DNA of 41,771 nt, taken from Verrucomicrobiota bacterium. GTDB lineage: Bacteria; Verrucomicrobiota; Verrucomicrobiia; JABWAM01; JAHFSZ01. Below the pieces are notes generated by a model, which saw nothing but the letters and a program-made list of their open reading frames with translations, had not been told where the DNA came from and did not search any database. The DNA lies in contig JAHFSZ010000011.1 of the NCBI GenBank assembly GCA_023265515.1, forward strand, positions 1 through 41,771. Direction: 5' to 3'. Position numbers and translations under genes: made by a program. Position 1 is the first letter of the stretch, and every line of letters starts with the position of its first letter. This document shows positions 19,083 through 20,556 of this stretch, one piece after another.

Positions 19083-19493
19083 CTACTTTTTCTTTTGTTT
19101 ACGGGGCTGCTCAACCGGATCAGCTTTCTTGGCCTTTCCAGACTGCCGTTCATCGCTCACCACAACCTTCAGGTGGCTGGTCCGCTTGCGGATGACGCTT
19201 GCCGATCCCCGCGCCCTTGCGCTGATGCGCTTGATCGTGGTCCCCTGGCCAACCTCCGCACGGCAAACCCGAAGCTGCGCGGAATTCATATGAATCTTGC
19301 TGTTTCGGGCCTGATCCTCCGCATTCGCGACGGCCGACTTGAGCGTTTTGGCGATCAAGCGTGCGGCTTTCCGCGGAATAAAGCTCAACAGGCTCTGGGC
19401 CTCCTCCACACCGAGTCCAGAGATCTTGCGCATGACCTCCCACGCCTTGCGGGGAGCAATCCGCACGTTCTTTGTTATGGCTTGAACTTCCAT
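19083..19493 (-). CDS. rplV: 50S ribosomal protein L22
   Basis: NVRIAPRKAWEVMRKISGLGVEEAQSLLSFIPRKAARLIAKTLKSAVANAE. Confidence 0.96.
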   Translation of the reverse strand: MEVQAITKNVRIAPRKAWEVMRKISGLGVEEAQSLLSFIPRKAARLIAKTLKSAVANAEDQARNSKIHMNSAQLRVCRAEVGQGTTIKRISARARGSASVIRKRTSHLKVVVSDERQSGKAKKADPVEQPRKQKKK

Positions 19494-19510: not shown

Positions 19511-20281
19511 CTATGACTTCCTCAACACAGCCTGATCATCCATCTTCACAGGATTTTTTCCCTCCATCCGCTCGATCAGAGCGCCGCATATCTTGTCGCG
19601 CACTTCCACCACATAAACGGTCGCCACGAGTCTGTTGTCCCGAACGATATCAAACGGCATCCCAAGCCGGATTCCGTGCTCCCGGCCAACGTTCAACACC
19701 ACGAGACTCAGGTCTTTGCGGAATTCCGCAACCCTTGCCGTCTTCAATGCCTCGACGTCGACGCTCTCAGGCTCGCTGGCTTCTCCCTCTTGCTTCCGCT
19801 CCCATTTTCCAGGTCCGAGCAGCTTCTTGACCGCTCGCACCTCTTCTTCAAGCAGGGCCCTCTTTTTCGGATCCACCCGATCCGCAGACTTCACCGCCTC
19901 TTCCGCCAGCAGGGTGACTTTCCGGAGTCGCTGTTCCAGCTCCTCGCCGGCAAGTTGCCCGCGTCTCAACAGGCGCAATGTCGTCAGCATCTGCCATCGC
20001 AGCTCCTCGGATGTTTCCGGAACTGCTTTCAGCGCGCCCGACTTCTTCCCGACATCCGGTCCACCGGAACCACTTCGGGCCTCCTTGAGGTTGAGAACCT
20101 CGATTTTCATCAAGGCCTCTTGCACCTGCTTCTGAAGGTTCAAGTTCTGCTGTCGCAACGCCTGAACACTCAGACGCAGCTCCTCGATCTCTTCCCCGTT
20201 CTCCTCTGATCGAACTGACAATGAACAAACAACCAACAACAAGATTGCAACAACGCACCCGCCTGCCCGTCTATAACACAC
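19511..20281 (-). CDS. Uncharacterised predicted exported coiled-coil protein inserted between rpsS and rplV
   Basis: Hydrophobic N-terminus (CVVAILLLVVCSLSVRSEE), Leu/Glu/Gln coiled-coil regions, C-terminal domain LSLVVLNVGREHGIRLGMPFDIVRDNRLVATVYVVEVRDKICGALIE. Co-directional, with very short gaps to rpsS and rplV. Confidence 0.8.
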   Translation of the reverse strand: MCYRRAGGCVVAILLLVVCSLSVRSEENGEEIEELRLSVQALRQQNLNLQKQVQEALMKIEVLNLKEARSGSGGPDVGKKSGALKAVPETSEELRWQMLTTLRLLRRGQLAGEELEQRLRKVTLLAEEAVKSADRVDPKKRALLEEEVRAVKKLLGPGKWERKQEGEASEPESVDVEALKTARVAEFRKDLSLVVLNVGREHGIRLGMPFDIVRDNRLVATVYVVEVRDKICGALIERMEGKNPVKMDDQAVLRKS

Positions 20282-20283
20282 GA

Positions 20284-20556
20284 TTACTTCGTAACCTTTT
20301 CGGTATGCGCACCGTGTTTCTTGAAGGTGCGGGTCGGGGAAAACTCACCCAACCGGTGTCCGACCATGTTCTCCGTGACAAAAACCGGGTTGAAAATCTT
20401 GCCGTTGTGAACCATGAAATGATGGCCCACGAATTCCGGGATGATCATCGAGCGACGCGACCATGTCTTGATGGGCTTTTTTTCTGCGCCCATCTTCTGA
20501 ACTTTTTCCATCAGATGATCGTCGACAAACGGCCCTTTTTTCAGTGAACGTCCCAT
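20284..20556 (-). CDS. rpsS: 30S ribosomal protein S19
   Basis: [19 protein letters not shown]...[18 protein letters not shown]. Confidence 0.97.

Follow-up and report, generated by a model that had tools for sequence, protein, structure and literature searches.

Most Verrucomicrobiota branches carry, between the ribosomal protein genes rpsS and rplV of the S10 operon, itself among the best-conserved ribosomal clusters, a gene for a putatively exported protein with a predicted C-terminal beta-barrel. This gene, termed gene X in what follows, is ancient and spread across the phylum rather than an oddity or insertion of one genome, and it is apparently undescribed. The rpsS-rplV junction is among the steadiest gene junctions in bacteria. 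The gene is described here from a window of 41,771 nt (the whole stretch of DNA that was analysed), in a genome of 2.2 Mb (103 contigs, 88.5% complete) whose ribosomal proteins place within Verrucomicrobiota on the tree presented below. The coordinates (Table 1) bear out the original prediction of a co-directional 256-aa open reading frame tightly set between rpsS and rplV: 2 nt separate it from rpsS and 17 nt from rplV, and its GTG is the first possible start in frame. By its strand, tight spacing and conserved position gene X belongs to the S10 operon, and because it is co-directional and closely packed with its neighbours it is probably co-transcribed with them. Internal promoters and terminators were found at about chance level, and the RNA elements found in the window were tRNAs only.

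Table 1. Gene X, its neighbours and its predicted protein segments, in window coordinates
Feature	Position	Strand	Description
Gene X	19511..20281	minus	256 aa, GTG start; putatively exported coiled-coil/beta-barrel protein
rpsS (S19)	20284..20556	minus	upstream neighbour of gene X; PF00203
rplV (L22)	19083..19493	minus	downstream neighbour of gene X; PF00237
Signal-peptide-like or anchor segment, residues 1-26	20204..20281	minus	two Arg, then strong hydrophobic core
First helical (coiled-coil) stretch, residues 27-71	20069..20203	minus	AlphaFold2 model, pLDDT about 70
Second helical stretch, residues 91-161	19799..20011	minus	AlphaFold2 model
C-terminal six-stranded beta-barrel, residues 180-256	19514..19744	minus	predicted; pLDDT 88, pTM 0.78

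BLAST matches to the gene X protein were found in 73 of 113 relatives' genomes, and in all 29 further BLAST-derived loci (L003-L031) a homologue directly follows rpsS. Next comes rplV in 28 of these; at the exception, L012 (1390-3054), rpsS and X precede an unrelated gene that looks exported, with no rplV in the stretch covered, so that either the gene order is broken there or the assembly has joined separate sequences. A 36-member profile of X (A2) reaches the whole phylum. Chance cannot account for so wide a recurrence. The survey of the rpsS-rplV spacer in relatives that had been proposed as a check returned homologues in this same spacer at 92 deduplicated loci (108-314 aa), from every major Verrucomicrobiota branch sampled, with median gaps of 15.5 nt on the rpsS side and 12 nt on the rplV side. 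Since these 92 loci share the identical rpsS-X-rplV arrangement, a chimeric assembly is excluded. A mobile or phage origin was also considered and rejected, gene X being without matches in viral contigs, phages and plasmids. X is absent from all of the roughly 30 loci sampled in other phyla, among which Chlamydiota (a single locus, 17-nt spacer) and Planctomycetota are incompletely covered; they show the usual spacer with no gene in it.

The original prediction had allowed that the protein might be an already characterised, clade-wide member of the S10 operon, and this proved half right: it is resident phylum-wide, but no description of it was found in the open-access literature, so that its novelty is provisional. 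The sections covered of PMC8046335, which treats this cluster in Gammaproteobacteria and Bacilli, place gene insertions mostly between operons and name none inside S10; in the sections covered of PMC3444138 (PVC signature proteins) and PMC2474590 (the Methylacidiphilum genome) we found no mention of gene X.

The history of the gene was followed on a tree of rplB, rpsS, rplV and rpsC (166 rows, split-operon genomes left out). All X-bearing loci on it fall inside Verrucomicrobiota (136 rows, SH-aLRT 98), across all main branches. Parsimony gives at least 12 changes of X state, and the sequences are most simply explained by one gain near the base of the phylum with about 11 losses. Lineages that lost X include the Limisphaera/Pedosphaera clade (mostly with 1-18 nt gaps), one family (f8), a Kiritimatiellae-type clade and two 0.9-Mb genomes. 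Two loci with titles that look misassigned, L067 ('Akkermansia muciniphila') and L040 ('Hydrogenedentota'), both place in the X-less Limisphaera/Pedosphaera clade. The X-less spacers gave no profile signal of a decayed X, including those of small genomes (148-313 nt) and the 552-nt spacer of L188 (1773-2325), which holds no convincing open reading frame; the only other spacer open reading frame of at least 90 aa, also in L188, has no profile match to X.

Of 59 genomes drawn evenly, 18 show the order rpsS-X-rplV and 19 have rpsS-rplV lacking X. The operon is split in the others: X lies immediately before rplV in 14 of them and is missing from that place in 8. Lentisphaeria-like genomes (families f43, f48 and f53; L213, L215, L218, L230 and others) have S10 split exactly after rpsS, with X-rplV-rpsC opening a separate block. 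After an operon split X usually went with rplV, which makes rplV its firmer link, and retention of the pair suggests that the two are tied by function or by inertia. One genus (g98) has X away from ribosomal genes (L275 2971-3741, L278 2919-3692, L277 2970-3722), adjoining a recN-like gene (read by eye) in two genomes. These relocated copies place nearest the rplV-linked ones, and whichever of the three settings they come from, X copies group apart from a paralogue, Y (SH-aLRT 97.9); as judged from their sequences, they are a single orthologous family. Persistence of the relocated gene in one genus suggests that the protein itself is of use, and since some lineages keep X elsewhere, it does not strictly need to be co-expressed with ribosomes.

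A signal-like N-terminus, a coiled coil and a C-terminal beta domain had all been expected of the protein, and each is corroborated. On the Kyte-Doolittle scale the best 11-residue hydrophobic stretch near its N-terminus reaches 3.6, whereas five neighbouring ribosomal proteins give 0.4-1.1. In the full-length AlphaFold2 model, helices span residues 8-71 and 91-161, and residues 182-253 form a beta domain predicted with confidence (pLDDT about 91); the barrel modelled alone reaches pTM 0.78. An N-terminal hydrophobic core of at least 1.6 on the same scale, which serves as a heuristic only, is present in 88 of the 92 family members. By appearance the N-termini differ in type, being signal peptides, anchors or, in the eight of 92 members with lipobox-like motifs, lipoprotein signals. 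The coil ranges from absent to long, and several families have short forms (about 110-135 aa) that lack it but retain signal and barrel; what stays constant in the family is the export signal and the barrel, and members can do without the coiled coil. Best conserved is the glycine-rich core of the barrel, and the invariant or nearly invariant residues (Gly199, Gly203, Gly207, Met208, Arg214, Val227 and Arg228) cluster in this domain. Median dN/dS within one genus is 0.14 (53 pairs), and X is under strong purifying selection.

No Pfam or NCBIfam family matches X above its cut-off. PF16538 (FlgT_C) scores 18.5 bits against gene X, with a gathering cut-off of 27, and weak FlgT_C matches recur in 6 of 36 members, over the first 25-30 positions; the best matches by sequence among solved structures cover coiled coils only. 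By Foldseek, another of the checks proposed at the outset, the modelled C-terminal barrel resembles both FlgT-C and the crown barrel at the N-terminus of F1/V-ATPase. The best matches of the full model are the LPHT ring (E 4e-4) and FlgT (E 7e-4); for the barrel alone the F1-ATPase crown barrel ranks above FlgT, and none reaches E 0.001. Superposed on FlgT-C, the barrel has a TM score of 0.68-0.70 over the domain, equalled by F1-ATPase crown barrels. Given this domain-only ranking, fold alone leaves the role unfixed; the likeness to both kinds of barrel would point to a binding module, not an enzyme.

Three known or related proteins invite comparison. FlgT, of the Vibrio flagellar H/T ring, is periplasmic, as X is predicted to be, and has a similar beta-barrel by Foldseek of the modelled domain, but X lacks the N and M domains of FlgT and has only the signal and coil, or almost nothing, ahead of its barrel. 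MreC shares with X an N-terminal membrane segment, a coiled coil and a beta domain (Foldseek E about 0.01), but there is no profile match between the two. Identity of X with MreC was rejected: the host genome encodes a separate MreC next to mreB (PF04085, E 1.6e-44), and X is unmatched. The two occur independently across genomes, with no correlation of X loss with MreC; in two genomes of genus g6 (G021 and G064) X is present and no MreC was found. Paralogue Y, at L210 1477-2271 in the host genome (contig C13, 264 aa), resembles X in its membrane segment and coiled coil, and its C-terminal barrel is homologous (hhalign E 1.4e-7), but Y forms a separate clade and does not lie beside ribosomal genes. 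It recurs across the phylum, uncharacterised, and accounts for the second-tier profile matches lacking ribosomal neighbours.

The reading we favour, at about an even chance, is of an S10-resident gene, gained once and early, for an exported, oligomeric envelope scaffold or adaptor made approximately in proportion to ribosomes. X would be exported by Sec and stay periplasmic, either released by cleavage or tethered through an N-terminal anchor or lipid; it would oligomerise through its coiled coil where this is present, and its FlgT_C-like barrel would bind a cell-envelope partner. If rpsS, X and rplV share one transcript, X synthesis would be roughly proportional to that of ribosomes, giving the link between growth rate and envelope function that was hinted at originally. 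As a best guess this suits a protein that is exported, usually has a coil and carries a conserved barrel of binding type; against it stand the many lineages without X, the variation in signal-peptide type and the FlgT_C scores below cut-off. An envelope-function gene among ribosomal protein genes has a precedent in secY of the spc operon, although secY is nearly universal and encodes a translocon component, whereas X, unrelated to it, is found in one phylum of our sample.

The same precedent, with the ribosomal-operon location and the export-like signal, could instead suggest that X partners the Sec translocon or ribosomes bound at the membrane, helping in targeting or periplasmic folding, which would account for the site of the gene; a coiled coil is found in some periplasmic chaperones too. 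We consider this unlikely, as profile searches found nothing to link its sequence with known components of the translocon and the short forms have no coil. An exported protein immediately ahead of rplV, in a pair that survives operon splitting, also recalls cis-acting nascent chains such as SecM and VemP: the export state of X would govern ribosome movement and thereby translation of downstream rplV, whose product L22 lines the exit tunnel, as in arrest-peptide systems. Such cis-regulation is disfavoured because the C-terminal tails vary in sequence and length among 36 members, with no shared arrest motif; the folded domain moreover extends almost to the C-terminus, X copies are maintained away from rplV and many lineages have rplV without X, all of which makes it quite improbable.

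Clean losses, leaving gaps of 1-18 nt in whole clades, mean that X is dispensable, and together with its absence from the two 0.9-Mb relatives they might mark it as a nearly neutral passenger in a hard-to-break operon; strong purifying selection, phylum-wide retention and survival after relocation render this very improbable. Least probable of all is a role at the RNA level, in which the exported reading frame would tether S10 mRNA to the membrane (transertion) with the protein of little import, for although anchor type and coil length vary freely beside a nearly universal export-like signal, conservation peaks in the glycine-rich barrel core, dN/dS stands at about 0.14 and one genus maintains X outside the operon.

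Beyond the favoured scaffold or adaptor reading, we tentatively raise a wider possibility, itself rather doubtful: that X is part of an ancestral Verrucomicrobiota device coupling envelope building to ribosome synthesis, in which an exported barrel protein, whose gene lies directly before rplV and has remained matched to it despite the break-up of S10, would act as a growth-rate-matched envelope scaffold or in a feedback from export to L22 synthesis. A phylum-wide, putatively exported protein at the rpsS-rplV junction is a strong marker of the phylum and points to an undescribed envelope component. Its repeated independent losses, the operon splits and the relocation are natural experiments on X, and cultured Verrucomicrobiota make its role testable.
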